From NCBI RefSeq assembly GCF_002095535.1, contig NZ_MLJI01000001.1:2903832-2967831 (forward strand): a stretch of DNA of 64,000 bases, given 5' to 3'. Origin of the DNA: Pantoea cypripedii. GTDB taxonomy: Bacteria > Pseudomonadota > Gammaproteobacteria > Enterobacterales > Enterobacteriaceae. The notes below the pieces were generated by a model. It was not told the origin of the DNA and did not search any database. It was given only the letters and a program-made list of their open reading frames with translations. Below are positions 9,516-17,235 of the stretch, piece after piece (the stretch's first letter is position 1; each line of letters opens with the position of its first letter). Both the position numbers and the translations under genes were made by a program.

Positions 9516-9807
9516 TTAAGGATATATACCTTTAAACACCGTTTTCTTTCTTGGTTCGGTCATCAGCGCCTCAAGCGCCTCCACACAAGCCAGATAATGC
9601 GGTGTTTTTTTATGGGCCAGCACCGCCGCCTCATCCGCATAAGCCTCATAAATAAAAAAACCGCGTCGGCACGTTGCTGTCCTGCAAAACATCAAAACGC
9701 AGGTTGCCGGGCTCCTGTACCGCCCCTAGATGATTTGCATGGAATACCCGTAAAAATTCGTCGATACAGTCGGCTTTTACGTTGATCTCCACCAGAGTGA
9801 CTTCCAT
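9516..9807 (-). pseudogene. lsrG: LsrG, phospho-AI-2 isomerase, frameshifted
   Basis: LsrG (96 residues in E. coli) isomerises phospho-autoinducer-2 during its breakdown. Here the ATG at 9807 opens the family N-terminus [13 protein letters not shown], and codons 1-49 align without gaps to LsrG up to the Arg before the FxIYEAY motif. A run of seven T (minus strand, at 9654-9660) where six are expected then shifts the frame, giving a stop at codon 54. In the shifted frame the rest of LsrG reads through cleanly ([20 protein letters not shown] to the C-terminus) and ends at 9516. The total length is 97 codons plus one base. A strong ribosome site AAGGAG precedes the start, 11 bases after the lsrB stop. 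It is either a real pseudogene, a slippage-prone tract, or a one-base sequencing error. Confidence 0.88.
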
Positions 9808-9818
9808 TCACGTTCTCC

Positions 9819-10826
9819 TTAAAAATCGTAGTTGTCGATGTTGTCTTTGGTAAACACCACGCGCTCAGGCAGCAGCACGATACCGTTGCCTTTGGCTTCA
9901 TAATTGTAGCCCTGCACGCTGTTGTCGGAGACCGTCACTTTGCCCACATCCGGCACCTGTAAACTGTCTCCGGGATTGAGCTCGCCTTTCAACAACTGAT
10001 TCGCCACCGCTATCGAAATCCGGCCCTGCTTCACCACATCCCACAGGCCGAACTGCTGCACCGTACCGCGCTTAACATAGGGCCGCATCACGTTCGGGGT
10101 ACTGAAACCGACAATCGTCACATCCTTCCGTCCGAGATTTTCCGCCGCCTGAGCTGCGGCCGGTAACGCGTTGGCATCCGGGGCGATGATCGCATCCAGA
10201 TCGCTCCAGGATTTCAGGATCCCCTCCGCCGTCTGCAATGATTTGGTGGCATCGTTGTAGCCATACTGCGTGGTGACAATCTCCCAATTAGGGTGATCTT
10301 TGGCGATCTTCGCTTTTGCTTCTTTTACCCATTGATTCTGATCGGTCACCGTCGGGCTGGAATAGAAGAACGCGACCTTCGCTTTATCCTTTTTCACCTG
10401 GCTGGCAGCCATATCCACCAGCATGCCGCCCAGCTGCGCAGGGGTGCCCTGGTTAATATAAATCGAGCGGCATTCCGGTTTGGTGTCGGAGTCCCAGGTC
10501 AGCACCTTCACACCGCGTTGCATGGCGCGTTTCAACGCCGGGCACAGGCCGTCTGGCGAAACCGCAGCCACCACAATGGCGTTATATCCCTGATTCACGA
10601 AGTTATTGATCATCTGCACCTGGCCGGAGACGCTCGGCTCGGTGGGGCCGTCATAGGTCACATCAACGCCGAGGGCTTTTCCGGCCTCGGTGGCCCCTTT
10701 GCCACCGCTGGTGAAATACCCTACCCCCACCAGCTTGGGGATAAAGGCGATACGTTCGGCTGCCTGAACGCTCAGACTGACACCGAGTACACAGCACAGG
10801 GCCAGAGATAACCGCTGCATTTTCAT
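9819..10826 (-). CDS. lsrB: LsrB, periplasmic autoinducer-2-binding protein
   Basis: This 335-residue protein belongs to the sugar-type periplasmic binding family (Peripla_BP_4). A cleavable signal peptide covers about residues 1-22 ([15 protein letters not shown], then [12 protein letters not shown]). LsrB delivers AI-2 to the LsrCD channel. The ligand-region motifs [12 protein letters not shown] and [12 protein letters not shown] are intact, and so are the length and the C-terminus. The start at 10826 has an AGGAGT ribosome site. It is the fourth gene of the leftward lsr operon and follows lsrD by 5 bases. Although this gene is intact, the ATPase needed for transport is broken, so its use for import is doubtful unless another ATPase substitutes. 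It could still act as a periplasmic AI-2 binder. Confidence 0.96.
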
Positions 10827-10831
10827 GATTT

Positions 10832-11845
10832 TTACTCCTGGTAAGATGCGCGATCGCGCGTGAATCGCGCACGCAAACGCCGGCTAAGCTGGCGCACAAT
10901 GCCTGGATTCAGGCTCCAGGAGCGTCCGATCACCGCAAGAATCAGCAGTGCGCCAGAAAGCGCGCTACTGACCTGACTCGACACTCCCACCATTTGCAAA
11001 CCCTGCTGCAAAAAGCCGATCAGCAGCGTAGCCAGCGCGGTGCCCAGCACCGAACCTGCCCCGCCGTAAATATTGGCACCGCCCAGCACCACCGCCGTGA
11101 TCGCAGGCATTAACAGCGGCGCACCCAGGTCGGCACGCGCCGAGCCGAAGTACGCGCTCATCACCGCCGCCGCCAGCGCCGATGCCAGCCCGACCAGGCT
11201 GTAAAGCAGCAGCAAGGTGCGGTTGACCGGCAACGCGCCATAGCGCGCTGCACGCAGGTTCTGGCCGAGCAAAAACACATAGCGTCCGGTACGCGTCCGA
11301 TGCATCAGCAGCCAGAACAGCAGGCAAAGCAGCGTAAATAACAGCAGCGGCATCGGGATACCGAGCGGGGTGAAATTGGCTAAATCGGTAAAGGTCGCCG
11401 GAAAATCCCCGATCCCCTCAAAGCCGGTCGCCCCGGCCAACCCGGAAAGCAGCAGCGCTCCGCCACCGTAGAGATAAAGCGTGCCCAGGGTGATCACCAG
11501 CGGGTTCACGCCGGTCCAGAGGATCAGCGCGCCATTGAGCCAGCCACACAGGCTGCCCAGCAACAGCGTACACAGCAAAGCAACCGGCAACGGCCAGTGA
11601 CTTTGCAGCATGATACCCAGCGCGATAGCGCATAAGCCGGTCACCGCGGCAAAGGAGATGTCGATACCACCACTGACAATCACCAGCGTCAGCGGCAAGG
11701 CGACAATGCCGACGGTGATAAAATCGCTGGTGCTGAACAGCAGGGTGTCGATGTTCAGCATGCGTGGATTACCCCAGCCGAACAGCAGGATTTCCAGCAC
11801 CAGCAGCAGCGCCAGCGCGCCTTCCCAGTTCAGATAGCGCTTCAT
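10832..11845 (-). CDS. lsrD: LsrD, AI-2 importer permease
   Basis: This 337-residue inner-membrane permease has 8-10 hydrophobic helices and the ABC sugar-permease signature seen in RbsC-like proteins (SGGIDISF near residue 60, [15 protein letters not shown] near 245). With LsrC it forms the AI-2 channel. The ATG at 11845 would overlap the expected lsrC stop by four bases (ATGA, 11842-11845), the usual coupling in this operon. In the sequence as given, lsrC instead reads on past it in another frame because of an apparent slip. LsrD itself is full-length with no lesion. Confidence 0.95.
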
Positions 11846-12884
11846 TCGGTCGCTCCCCGGCGCGAGGCCGCTGTCGGCGGTGGTTTAACGGTTTTTTTCG
11901 TGCCGGAGGGGTTAAAAAACGGGCGTACCTTTGCCGATGCAGACGACGGGTCAACGCCTGGCGTAAGCGTCCGTCAATCACCAGCACCGCCAGCAGCACC
12001 AGTCCCGAGATAAAATCATTCCACCATGCCGGTAGCCTGAGCAGCACCAGCACGCTATCAATTTGCGTCAGGAACCAGGCACCGAGGATCGCCCCCAGCA
12101 GGGTGCCGGAACCGCCCAGTAAACTAACACCGCCCAGCACACAGGCCGCGATGGCTTTCATCTCCATCCCGGTGCCGGTTTGGTTGGGCACAAAACCAAT
12201 TTGCGCAGCAAACACCATCCCGGCCAGCGCCGCCAGCGCGCCGTTGGCGGTAAAGGCGAGTAAGCGCACCTGATTGACCGGCACACCCAGCTGGCGTGCG
12301 CCCTGCAAATTATCACCGGTGGCATAAAAGTTGCGGCCGGCAGCGGTCCGCGCGAGGAACAACATCATCACTACCGCAATCAGCAAAATCATGATGCCCA
12401 GCGGTGACAGCCCCGCCACCACCGGCGCGGCCAGGGTTTTCAGTTGCTCCGGCAACCCTTCGATCCATTTGCCGCCCGTCAGCAACAGCATCAGGCCGCG
12501 ATACAGCCCGAGGGTGCCCAGGGTGGCAACAATCGCCGGAATACGCAGCCCGGTGACCAGCACACCATTAAACAATCCGGCTAACATGCCGGTGCCCAGC
12601 GTCGCCAGACAGGCCAGCGGCAGTGCGACTCCCTGATTCAACAGAACGCCCAGCACCGCAGCACACAATCCCATGGTGGAACCGCAGGACACATCAATAT
12701 TGCGCGTCAGCAGCACCAGCGTGGCCCCCATCGCCAGCAGAATGGCGATCTGCGCACTGCCAAAGATCATCCCCACCCATCGCAGGCTGACGTCCTGCCG
12801 CCCCAGCAGCCAGGGCAGCATAAACAGCACCAGGATCGCCAGCAGAGTGCTCAGCTCCCGGTGGGTTTGCAGGTATTTCAGCAT
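11769..12884 (-). CDS. lsrC: LsrC, AI-2 importer permease, with an apparently frame-shifted C-terminal tail
   Basis: This is an RbsC-like permease of 371 residues as read. The membrane core is complete: RNIDVSCGS near residue 65, [21 protein letters not shown] and [13 protein letters not shown]. It aligns with E. coli LsrC (342 residues) up to about residue 325 ([10 protein letters not shown]). Beyond that the tail is Arg/Ala-rich and reads 77 bases into lsrD. In the other frame the tail becomes [18 protein letters not shown] and stops at 11842, overlapping the lsrD ATG by four bases as expected. Loss of one A from a poly-A tract (T7 at 11892-11898 on the plus strand) explains this. The transmembrane part should be functional; coupling to lsrD may be altered. 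The start overlaps the lsrA stop (TGATG). Confidence 0.9.
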
Positions 12885-14419
12885 CAGTATTCTCCTGCCG
12901 CCTGGGCGCTACGTCCCCAGGCCAGCTGAATGATATTTTCCGCACTCACCGCCGCCCCGGATAATTCGCCCACCAACCCTCCCTGATGCATCACCACCAC
13001 ACGATCCGCCAGCAGCGCGACCTCATCCAGATCCGAAGAGATAATGATCAGGCCGATCTGCTGCGCCACCACCGAGCGCAACAACTGATAGATATCGGCG
13101 CGGGCCGCCACATCCACCCCGCGCGTGGGTTCATCAACAATCAGGACTTTCGGCGTTGCCTCCAGGCAATTTGCCAGCAATAACTTTTGCTGATTCCCTC
13201 CGGACAGCGTGCGCGCCAGCTGGTCGTTGTGACTGAATTTGATCCCCAGCGCGCGCTGGTAACGCGTCAGCACCGCCCTCTCCTGCTGGGGTCGCAGCCA
13301 CCAGCTGCGCCGTGGCAGCGTTAATGCGGTGACGTTCCACGCCAGCGGTGCATCCGGATAGAGGCCGGAGGTTTGCCGGTCTTCCGGCAGATAAACCAGC
13401 CCGGCGCGCAGACGCGCCGCTGTCGGCAGCGACAACAGATTCTGCTGCTGCAAACGCGCCGTGCCGCTGCTGGCGGGGCGTAATCCGTACAGCGTTTCCG
13501 CCAGTTCGGTGCGCCCGGCCCCGACAATGCCCGCCAGACCGAGTATCTCTCCCGCTTTCACCTGCAACGAAATCTGACGAAAACCTTCGCCACTTAACTC
13601 ATCAACCTGCAACAGCACCTGGCCTTTTTGCTCCGCAGGCAGGTTACCCGCCTGTAACCACAGCTGCTGCTCTGCGCTCAACGGGGCTTGCCGTTCGGGC
13701 GGCATCATTGCCGCCACCAGCGCGTCATCATCCAGCGCGTCAATGCTGCCCTGTAACACCACGCAGCCGTCACGCATCACGCTGACCTGATGCGCCAGCG
13801 CCCGAATTTCCGGCAGCTTATGGGAAATAAACACCACCCCCACGCCCTGCCCGGCCAGTTGGCGCACCAGACGGAACAGGCGATCGGTTTCCACCGGGGT
13901 TAATGACGCGGTTGGTTCATCGAAAATCACCACTCTGGCGTCGCGCATCAGGCCACGCAGAATCTCCACCTGTTGCTGGTCAGCCACCGCCAGGGTACCG
14001 GCCAGTGCGTCCAGCGGCAGCGCGCTGCCCATCTGGCTGAGTAAGGTTTGCAGTTTTGGTTATCCGTCCTGCGCGCGCGGCAGGCGAAACAGGATGTTTT
14101 CGCGCACCGTCAGGCTGGGGAACAACAATGGCTCCTGCGGCACCAGGTAGATACCGCACTGGTGCGCTTTGGCCGGGGTCATTAACGTCAGGGGCTGATG
14201 CGCGAGGGTAAGCGTGCCGCTATCCGGTTGTTCGATACCGGCAATGATTTTCATCAGCGTCGATTTGCCCGCGCCGTTGCCACCGAGCAAGGCATGAATT
14301 TGCCCCGCGTACAGTTGAAAATCGATGCCGCGTAACACCGGCACACCGGAAAACGCCTTACAGACCGCAGCGATGTGTAACAGCAAGCTGGATTGCCGAT
14401 TGATCTGATCCTGCACCAT
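12884..14419 (-). pseudogene. lsrA: LsrA, AI-2 importer ATPase, split by an in-frame nonsense codon
   Basis: LsrA (511 residues in E. coli) is the double-ABC ATPase that drives AI-2 import. The ATG at 14419 ([10 protein letters not shown]) is preceded by GGGAG. The first 119 codons contain Walker A (GGNGAGKST) and the Q-loop region, then end at a TAA at 14060-14062 after RLPRAQDG. Past that TAA the same frame continues without a gap (PKLQTLLSQMGSALPLDALAG) into the rest of LsrA: the first ABC Walker B (VVIFDEPTASLTP), the second ABC cassette with signature LSGGNQQKLLLA and Walker B LIVDEPTRGVD, ending at 12884. A single substitution such as CAA to TAA accounts for it. Re-initiation at the ATG at 14032 would make a protein lacking the first P-loop. 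Classed as a pseudogene. Confidence 0.9.
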
Positions 14420-14434
14420 TGCCGCTCCCGATAA

Positions 14435-14465
14435 GAACAAATGATTTTCAAATAACATTATGTTC
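14435..14465. promoter_or_regulatory. LsrR operator-like site, lsrA side
   Basis: A 31-bp site starts GAACAAATGATTTTC and ends TGTTC, 15 bases upstream of the lsrA start. A second site of identical length and layout lies at 14603-14633. Assignment to LsrR is inferred from position between the divergent lsr operons. Confidence 0.6.
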
Positions 14466-14602
14466 ACAATCCTGGATAAGCTTTTTCGATAAAACTCTCG
14501 CAGCGGTCACAGATTGTTATTTCGCCAATATGGCGCGTATGATTGTGGCTGACTTGTTGTGCGAACTGCCAGCACGGTCACATTTTCTTCAACAGCCAAA
14601 AC

Positions 14603-14633
14603 GAACAATTGATTTACTTTTTATAAAGTGTTC
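14603..14633. promoter_or_regulatory. LsrR operator-like site, lsrR side
   Basis: Begins GAACAATTGATTTAC (13 of 15 bases match the lsrA-side site) and ends TGTTC, again exactly 31 bp. It overlaps the region just before the lsrR ATG at 14637, which fits autorepression by LsrR. Confidence 0.6.
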
Positions 14634-14636
14634 ATC

Positions 14637-15608
14637 ATGAAAAGCGATCTTAGCCCGGCAACGGGTCTCACTGTGGAAAACAGTATGAGTGAAGAAGAGC
14701 TACTGGCGCGTACCGCCTGGTTCTATTACCACGACGGACTGACACAGAATGAAATTGGTGAGCGACTTGGTCTGACTCGCCTGAAAGTGTCACGCCTGCT
14801 GGAGAAAGGACGCCAGTCCGGGGTGATCCGCGTACAGATTAATTCGCGTTTTGAGGGATGTCTGGCACTGGAACATGCCCTGCTCGAACGCTTCAGTCTG
14901 AAGCAGGTACGGGTGCTGCCGCAGCTTCACGGCCCGAATCTTAGCCAGCGACTCGGGGTGGGTGCCGCCCAGATGCTGATGTCGTTACTCCAGCCGCAAC
15001 AGTTGCTGGGGGTGGGGTTTGGCGAAACCAGTATGAACACCCTGCAACATCTGAGCGGTTTTATCGCTTCGCAGCAGATCCGCATGGTGACGCTCTCGGG
15101 CGGCGTCGGGCCGTATATGACCGGCATCGGCCAGCTTGATCCGGCCTGTGGTATCAGCATTATTCCGGCACCGCTGCGCGCTTCCAGCGCCAGCGTGGCG
15201 CAAATCCTGCGTCAGGAACGCAGCGTGCAGGACGTGATGCTCACCGCCTGTGCCGCAGATGTGGCGATTGTCGGCATTGGTGCGCTCAGCCAAAGGCAGC
15301 AGGCCACCATTTTGCGCTCGGGTTATATCAGCGAGGGTGAACAGCTGATGTATGGCCGCAAAGGCGCGGTGGGTGACATTCTCGGCTTTTTTATGCGTCC
15401 CGATGGACAACTGGCTGAGTCCATGCCGATCCATGATGAACTGATTGCCGTCAGTCCTGCCGAGCTGGCGACGATACCTGTCGTGGTCGGCGTGGCAGGC
15501 GGCACTGAAAAAGCAGAAGCCATCATTGCCGCCCTGAAGGGGGCGCGCATTAATGCCCTGGTAACAGAAGAGGACACAGCCCGCGCGATGTTGGCGTTAT
15601 TGCAGTAG
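14637..15608 (+). CDS. lsrR: LsrR, repressor of the lsr operon
   Basis: This 323-residue protein of the SorC/DeoR family is full-length. The N-terminal helix-turn-helix region reads [32 protein letters not shown] (about residues 25-56), and the C-terminal sugar-phosphate-sensing domain includes [17 protein letters not shown] and [16 protein letters not shown]. LsrR represses lsrACDBFG and lsrRK until phospho-AI-2 binds. A GTG at 14628 is also possible, but the ATG at 14637 is preferred because it gives an N-terminus nearer the family. With lsrK frameshifted there should be no inducer, so LsrR would hold the locus permanently off. It is the only regulatory gene of the locus without a lesion. 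Confidence 0.95.
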
Positions 15609-15656
15609 CCCTGCGGCGGGGTCGATCCGGTCAGATTTCTAACTGGAGAAAAAGAG

Positions 15657-17235
15657 ATGACGCTATCCCACGCCCCGCATTTAATGGCGCTCGACGCCGG
15701 CACCGGCAGCATTCGCGCGGTGATTTTTAACCTGCAAGGTGAGCAAATTGCCGTCGCCCAGGCCGAATGGCAGCACCTGGCCATTCCCGATGTGCCCGGT
15801 TCGATGGAATTTGACCTGAGCAAAAACTGGCAGCTGGCCTGCCAGTGCATTCGCCAGGCGCTGCAACAGGCGCAGCTACCCGCCAGCGCCATCCGTGGCG
15901 TGGCCTGTTGTTCGATGCGTGAAGGTATCGTGTTGTATAACAAAGCCGGTGAGGCGATCTGGGCCTGCGCCAACGTTGATGCCCGCGCCAGTCGTGAAGT
16001 CAGCGAACTCAAAGAAATACATCACGGCAAGTTTGAACGCGAAATCTACCAGTGTTCCGGACAAACCCTGGCACTGGGTGCGATGCCGCGCCTGCTGTGG
16101 CTGGCGCATCACCGTCCGGATATCTATCGCCAGGCCGCCACCCTGACCATGATCAGCGACTGGCTGGCAAAGTGCCTCAGTGGCGAGCTGGCGGTTGATC
16201 CTTCCAATGCCGGAACAACCGGTCTGCTCGATTTACGCAGCCGCAACTGGCGGCCGGAACTGCTGGAGATGGCCGGTTTACGCGGCAATATGCTCTCGCC
16301 GGTGGCGGAAACCGGTACCCCGCTCGGGTACGTCACTGCCGACGCAGCCAATGCCTGTGGCCTGGCACAAGGCACAGTGGGTGGCGATGGGCGGCGGCGA
16401 TGTCCAGTTGGGCACGCTGGGGCTGGGGGTGGTCAGGGCCGGAGAGACAGCGGTGCTGGGTGGCACCTTCTGGCAACAGGTGGTGAATCTGCCACAGCCG
16501 CAGGTCGATCCGGCGATGAATATTCGTATCAATCCGCACGTCATTCCCGGCATGGCGCAGGCGGAAGCCATCAGCTTTTTTACCGGCCTGACCATGCGCT
16601 GGTTCCGTGATGCCTTTTGCGGTGAGGAGAAACTGCTGGCGGAACGGCTGGGGGTGGATTGCTATAGCCTGCTGGAGGAGATGGCCGCCCGGGTTCCGGC
16701 CGGTGCCTGGGGGGTGATGCCGGTATTCTCTGATGCGATGCACTTTAACAAGTGGTATCACGCCGCTCCGTCGTTCATTAATCTCTCCATCGATCCGGAA
16801 CGTTGTAATAAGCAAACCCTGTTCCGCGCGCTGGAGGAGAACGCCGCCATTGTTTCAGCCTGCAATCTTGATCAGGTGGCAGAATTTTCCGGCGTACGGG
16901 CGTCGCATCTGGTGTTCGCAGGCGGTGGATCCAAAGGGAAGCTGTGGAGCCAAATCTTAAGTGACGTGACCGGCCTGACGGTAAAAGTGCCGCAGGTAAA
17001 AGAAGCAACCGCGCTGGGCTGTGCCATTGCGGCGGGCGTCGCTGCCGGACTTTACAGCAACCTGGCGGAGACCGGACGCGACCTGGTGCGCTGGGAACGG
17101 GAATTTCACCCCGATGCCGCTCATCATGCGCTCTATCAGCAACAAAAAGCCGTCTGGCAGAAGGTGTATGCTGACCAGCTGACGCTGGTGGATAACGGGC
17201 TGACCACATCAATGTGGAAAGCGCCGGGGCTGTAA
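15657..17235 (+). pseudogene. lsrK: LsrK, autoinducer-2 kinase, frameshifted
   Basis: LsrK (530 residues in E. coli) is an FGGY-family kinase that phosphorylates AI-2 in the cytoplasm. The start at 15657 gives [22 protein letters not shown], the first ATP-binding motif, and the frame matches LsrK to about residue 240 (ACGLAQGT). It then runs into unrelated sequence and stops at 16610. In the +1-shifted frame the rest of the kinase resumes at once ([17 protein letters not shown], then [25 protein letters not shown]) and ends normally at 17235 with WKAPGL. The junction is within GGCACAGTGGGTGGCGATG at 16371-16389, where one extra G or two missing bases explain the shift. Neither half would be an active kinase. 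Confidence 0.92.

Follow-up and report, generated by a model that had tools for sequence, protein, structure and literature searches.

The lsr locus for uptake and processing of autoinducer-2 (AI-2) lies at positions 9516-17235 of the Pantoea cypripedii DNA analysed here (64,000 nucleotides of contig NZ_MLJI01000001.1, assembly GCF_002095535.1; hereafter the window), and three of its genes, lsrA, lsrK and lsrG, are interrupted in this record. We consider it fairly probable, judging from the sequence comparisons, that these interruptions come from one-base consensus errors clustered locally in the assembly; in the living strain the locus probably works, with functional LsrA, LsrK and LsrG. A preliminary description of the same DNA had instead seen a locus decaying in place. 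Our results do not bear this out: every disabling change in lsr is a one-base difference in length, in or beside short runs or repeats, there is no clear loss of constraint along this branch, and pyrG, encoding CTP synthase, is cut in the same way elsewhere in the genome. Lesions of several kinds (nonsense changes, deletions and insertions), which would be expected of a pseudogenised locus, were not found in lsr, where one-base length differences are the only kind.

The genes lsrG-B-D-C-A occupy the minus strand and are divergent from lsrR-K on the plus strand, with a control region between lsrRK and lsrACDB. The well-known lsr system of Salmonella and E. coli (lsrK, lsrR, lsrACDBFG) shares these genes and their divergent arrangement of lsrRK and the transport operon; the window locus differs from it in having no lsrF and in the interruption of lsrA, lsrK and lsrG in this record. 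The flanks are presumably gyrA-ubiG on one side and nrdAB on the other, placing the locus between ubiG and nrdA (names read off the translations). The nearest relatives are all Pantoea: the metagenome-assembled genome (MAG) Chal_Metagen_Bin9 (G001, locus L009; 95.4% identity over 9.7 kb), G017 (about 93%), G045, G036 and AS-PWVM4 (G035, locus L010). The locus comprises the following features:

9516..9807, minus strand: lsrG (phospho-AI-2 isomerase), cut; open in G001, G017, G045, G036 and G035
9819..10826, minus strand: lsrB (AI-2 binding protein), open; NCBIfam LsrB 650.9 bits against a cut-off of 384, 98.8% identical to L009
10832..11845, minus strand: lsrD (permease), open; 543.9 bits against a cut-off of 500
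11769..12884, minus strand: lsrC (permease), residues 1-331 open, altered tail; 542.9 bits against a cut-off of 388
12884..14467, minus strand: lsrA (ATPase), cut by a TAA at 14060-14062; open in L009, L010 and L159-L162
14468..14627, no strand: divergent control region between lsrA and lsrR; 160 bases, 99.4% identity to G001
14628..15608, plus strand: lsrR (repressor), open; 558.9 bits against a cut-off of 486, 99.7% identical to L009
15657..17235, plus strand: lsrK (AI-2 kinase), cut at about 16371-16389; unsplit in 16 of the 18 genomes of the genus that carry lsrK

LsrB, LsrC, LsrD and LsrR all exceed their NCBIfam equivalog cut-offs, and the preliminary description was right that lsrB, lsrD and lsrR remain. 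The genome (6.55 Mb in 3 contigs) has a single, open copy of luxS at G000:C1:3322220-3322663, where G000 denotes this genome and C1 one of its contigs. An Rfam scan of the window gave no match. As an ordinary Pantoea-type lsr locus, it would allow the living strain to handle AI-2 in the usual way: LsrB would bind AI-2, LsrACD would import it and LsrK would phosphorylate it, whereupon phospho-AI-2 would relieve LsrR and LsrG would process the phosphate.

The breaks themselves are simple. LsrA is spread over two frames, 14060-14467 and 12884-14032 (positions 5-115 and 128-505 of the LsrA profile); full length is not reached in one frame, and the larger piece scores 571.7 bits against a cut-off of 586. 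The in-frame TAA described earlier is indeed present, but it is not a simple nonsense change: it falls inside an out-of-frame stretch of about 9 bases, which lies between two one-base differences from G001 that compensate each other. For lsrK and lsrG, the single frameshifts reported earlier hold, with one one-base difference in each. LsrK is divided between frames 15657-16610 and 16180-17235 (profile positions 4-237 and 235-521), the C-terminal piece just reaching the cut-off of 528 (528.1 bits) and the N-terminal piece remaining below it (403.5). In lsrG, residues 1-51 and 50-96 are in different frames, and the change lies beside a run of A at about 9654-9662. Alignment with related Pantoea, proposed in the preliminary description, showed lsrA, lsrK and lsrG to be open in all five close relatives, so the breaks are private to this record. 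At the limits used, the genome has no second copy of lsrK or lsrB. A protein search with the cut LsrK returned 2876 matches, of which 120 were listed, and clustering at 90% hides near copies among them.

The lsrK gene (E 1e-100) occurs in 18 of the 61 genomes of the genus, this one included, and the other genome with a split lsrK is Candidatus Pantoea haifensis (L013/L166). There lsrC is cut as well, through either error or loss. In P. rwandensis LMG 26275 (L011/L155), lsrG is cut and the remaining locus is open.

The remaining two defects noted earlier do not belong among the lesions, so that four lesions become three broken genes. A run-length difference near 11892-11898 puts the tail of lsrC, after about residue 330, into another reading frame that enters the start of lsrD. 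The profile match nevertheless covers positions 1-336 of 344, leaving the change in the non-conserved part, and the family cut-off is passed. Since only the variable tail is altered and the lsrC tail of G045 (L160) is in the same frame, we rejected lsrC as a disabling lesion. As for lsrF, no gene of at least 50% identity is present in the window locus, as had been claimed, and elsewhere in the genome nothing matches it at more than 30% identity. But at the same threshold lsrF is missing from all six nearest loci (L009-L014) too, so it was not lost here. It is absent from 8 of all 36 loci, and also from L153, L155, L159-L162, L165 and L166. The absence of lsrF is a clade trait, not a local loss.

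That false breaks occur in this record is indicated by pyrG. We considered genes open in both G001 and G017, over the stretch available for all three genomes; 205 of 210 such genes are open here and 5 are cut. One of the five is pyrG (G000:C1:3359181-3360816, L085), which is split into two frames by a one-base run-length difference, both halves being 100% identical to G001. The genome has no other full pyrG, its other four matches being weak (26-38% identity). Cells can hardly live without CTP synthase and pyrG is needed; for this reason, the break should be false, and very probably is. A break of the same kind as in lsr, found in an indispensable gene, points to assembly error, and we infer that the lsr changes share its cause. 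Two further cut genes are adjacent and conserved (a cytochrome-c-assembly family gene and a CNNM/CorC family gene; G000:C1 about 3319855-3322093, L083/L084) and contain three one-base differences within 1.6 kb, both being open in G001 and G017. If this cluster has the same cause as the pyrG break, one-base errors can be grouped. The remaining two cut genes, frames of 4951 and 102 residues, were given no weight. Since mutS and mutL both read through their profiles without a break, a mutator strain is not indicated. Spurious gene fragmentation by frameshifts and stops, as proposed here, is described for contiguous long-read assemblies in the available part of PMC12007338; our record may differ from these in sequencing method. 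On average the record is not unusually poor, and the case we make is one of local error.

Two irregularities of the records may be mentioned at this point. A lone N stands at G000:C1 about 3390800, within 400 kb of otherwise clean sequence. In the G001 MAG (C12 about 76400-81000), three adjacent genes are in several frames and are open in this genome (G000:C1 about 3911700-3916300).

Constraint on lsr outside the lesions appears largely preserved on this branch. Private changes of the window branch in lsr number 38 synonymous and 16 non-synonymous (pN/pS 0.143, compared with 0.064 in G001, 0.076 in G017 and 0.036 in other window genes). Once the surroundings of the lesions are masked, 37 and 14 remain; the corresponding counts for G001 and G017 together are 204 and 44 (P = 0.12). 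Of these 14 non-synonymous changes, three belong to the lsrA lesion codons and another five to lsrC codons 28-36, while lsrK itself has 6 synonymous private changes and 1 non-synonymous. Full constraint would predict 8.0 non-synonymous changes and its complete absence 108.7, compared with the 14 observed. The part of the branch without constraint is estimated at 6% (upper limit 15%), or below zero (upper limit 5%) without the lsrA lesion codons and the lsrC stretch. The lsrC stretch (window 12777-12803) is peculiar in its own right, with five private non-synonymous changes in nine codons of a gene otherwise constrained. A second compensated pair, as in lsrA, was considered for it and rejected, the changes being plain substitutions.

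The number of one-base events can be set against the lineage's own rate. Private substitutions and private one-base indels were counted in 81 intergenic segments totalling 12.9 kb, giving 133 and 2 for this genome and 158 and 4 for G001. At this rate, the probability of at least 4 one-base indels in lsr (7.5 kb) within 13% of the branch is about 2e-5, or 0.002 at the upper-limit rate; for at least 3, it is 5e-4, or 0.018. All these probabilities are rough, the intergenic yardstick being small, its segments filtered for good alignment and the comparisons spanning two to four relatives.

Several observations speak against an explanation by error. In a four-genome comparison (the window, G001, G017 and G045), we could use 49 of the 57 genes called in the G017 stretch, 8 being dropped for incomplete matches; the alignment left the lsrA pair ungapped, as mismatches, and 10 columns at each gene end were not counted. 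All three window-private frame-breaking indels fall in lsr, and none in the other 42 genes (48.4 kb). The preliminary description had likewise noticed no similar lesions in the rest of the window. A uniform error rate would not explain such a cluster, and clustering within one functional unit is just what real decay predicts. An explanation by error requires local clustering, with one other example in the record. Moreover, cut genes are no commoner here (5 of 210) than in G001 (6 of 213) or G017 (8 of 215), and intergenic one-base indels are not in excess in this genome. Non-synonymous changes in masked lsr are commoner than in this genome's other genes (P = 0.0012), though in G017, too, lsr evolves faster than the other genes (P = 0.015). 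Finally, were the whole branch unconstrained, the probability of at least 4 one-base indels would rise to 0.03, or 0.6 at the upper-limit rate. On the other hand, the argument made earlier, that a clean window speaks against sequencing error, is weakened elsewhere in the genome by two neighbouring genes with three clustered one-base changes. At about 61543 the window also interrupts a 180-residue frame of G001. We dismissed this as a further break: G017 and G045 share the interruption, another frame, of 172 residues, lies opposite, and the G001 frame is probably no gene.

How, then, do the alternatives compare? The strongest competitor is a real and very recent inactivation, in which lsrA, lsrK and lsrG were lost after the split from G001. 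Such a course of events is possible, though clearly less probable than local error. It would account naturally for three cut genes in one unit amid uncut neighbours, for the intact regulator, control region and luxS, and for a count of cut genes that is not raised genome-wide. The cut lsrK and lsrC of haifensis and the cut lsrG of P. rwandensis would fit as well, error being possible there too. Absence of LsrK would mean no phospho-AI-2, so that LsrR would stay bound, the operon would be silent and AI-2 made by LuxS would stay in the medium; the chain from LsrK to bound LsrR follows from knowledge of the E. coli and Salmonella systems, as given in the available parts of PMC3386761 and PMC3420918. 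Loss of lsr is also on record: in the accessible portions of these reports, E. coli 83972 is without the whole locus (PMC12263705) and operons are incomplete in 5 of 41 lsr-positive avian E. coli (PMC6909531). The resemblance extends to luxS, which strain 83972 keeps, as it is kept here. But in those E. coli, part or all of lsr is gone (genes undetected by polymerase chain reaction, or the whole locus missing), whereas the window has one-base changes only. For a recent loss, constraint could have been absent over no more than a small share of the branch, and the one-base events are too many for that time at the lineage's own rate, while pyrG makes it very probable that this record contains false breaks.

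A mixture, with one break real and the others errors, seems unlikely. The sites are independent, and a single real break would be unremarkable, as the single cut lsrG in P. rwandensis illustrates, but here all breaks are of the same kind and no site stands out. Least of all do we believe in long-standing decay in place, with LsrK lost first, the locus silent and the rest drifting. Several genes are cut, to be sure, and the non-synonymous share is about twice that of the relatives. Yet the excess consists mostly of the three lsrA lesion codons and one nine-codon lsrC stretch, lsrK itself is hardly altered in protein sequence, full neutrality over the branch would yield about 109 non-synonymous changes, and the relatives' loci lack lsrF too. 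Long-past decay is disfavoured because, while it would leave room for the indels, it would leave none for the preserved constraint. The probabilities we attach to these readings sum to slightly over one, and the readings shade into one another.

If the breaks are errors, a story of lost quorum sensing and several pseudogene annotations would rest on a few miscalled bases. If they are real, the strain would be an unusually fresh case of a bacterium still producing AI-2 after losing the ability to import it. In any event, the pyrG break means that this record requires checking at the level of reads before claims of loss of function are made.

The comparison across the genus revealed reduced lsr loci of a different character. 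In six of the 18 lsrK-bearing genomes (G023, G042, G051, G063, G050 and G040, with loci L151, L152, L154, L156, L157 and L158), among the 61 searched, the same site beside ubiG-gyrA holds only lsrG and lsrK, divergent and open. The genes lsrR, lsrA, lsrC, lsrD and lsrB are absent at the site, LsrA, LsrC and LsrD having been sought there only; LsrB and LsrR were not found elsewhere in the six genomes either, the best LsrB-like matches having 25-31% identity and the LsrR-like ones at most 35%. LuxS is present in all six. These loci do not fit the order proposed earlier, in which loss of LsrK came first: at their site lsrR and the importer genes are missing, with lsrK and lsrG retained. In the available part of Rezzonico et al. 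2012 (PMC3386761), Pantoea sp. At-9b is the sole lsr-positive Pantoea listed, and the lone lsrK-lsrG arrangement is not named in titles or abstract openings among the matches listed from the open PMC literature.

Both genes of the six reduced loci are under strong constraint, with dN/dS of 0.033 for lsrK (15 of 15 pairs) and 0.033 for lsrG (14 of 15 pairs). Among ten complete loci, the values are 0.062 (19 of 45 pairs) and 0.065 (16 of 45), respectively. In these estimates dS was 0.7-1.0, and only pairs with values of 0.02-1.5 were retained; P. rwandensis, with its cut lsrG, is represented by the longer piece of that gene. The lsrK-lsrG-only state may have had one or more origins. The lsrK tree needs three label changes, two of them forced, and the ubiG-gyrA tree three, one of them forced; a single origin is favoured because the junction is common to the six. 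We see roughly even chances that the lsr system of the genus is being reduced to a processing pair. LsrK and LsrG might then phosphorylate and isomerise AI-2, whether self-made or entering by another route, as a form of metabolite disposal without signalling or Lsr import.

Separating the two genes is a conserved intergenic region of about 205 bases (203-205 from the G001 start position, with an ATG 6 bases further), alignable in all six. We found no sign of a structured RNA in it: there was no Rfam match, and no covarying pair among 30 predicted. A putative small coding frame shares the reading frame of lsrK in five of the six loci, with variation by codon position of 4, 4 and 6 and no third-position bias. 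A block of 24 bases differs at 0-1 positions among the six and at one base from window 14489-14512 in the lsr control region (95.8% identity). It was not seen in G015 and G041, complete loci whose lsrK clusters with that of the six. A second block, of 33 bases before lsrK (L151:3075-3200, minus strand, and equivalents), was found in no other sequence compared, even with up to five mismatches. Five of the six carry it unaltered and the sixth has a single change, despite near-saturation of synonymous sites.

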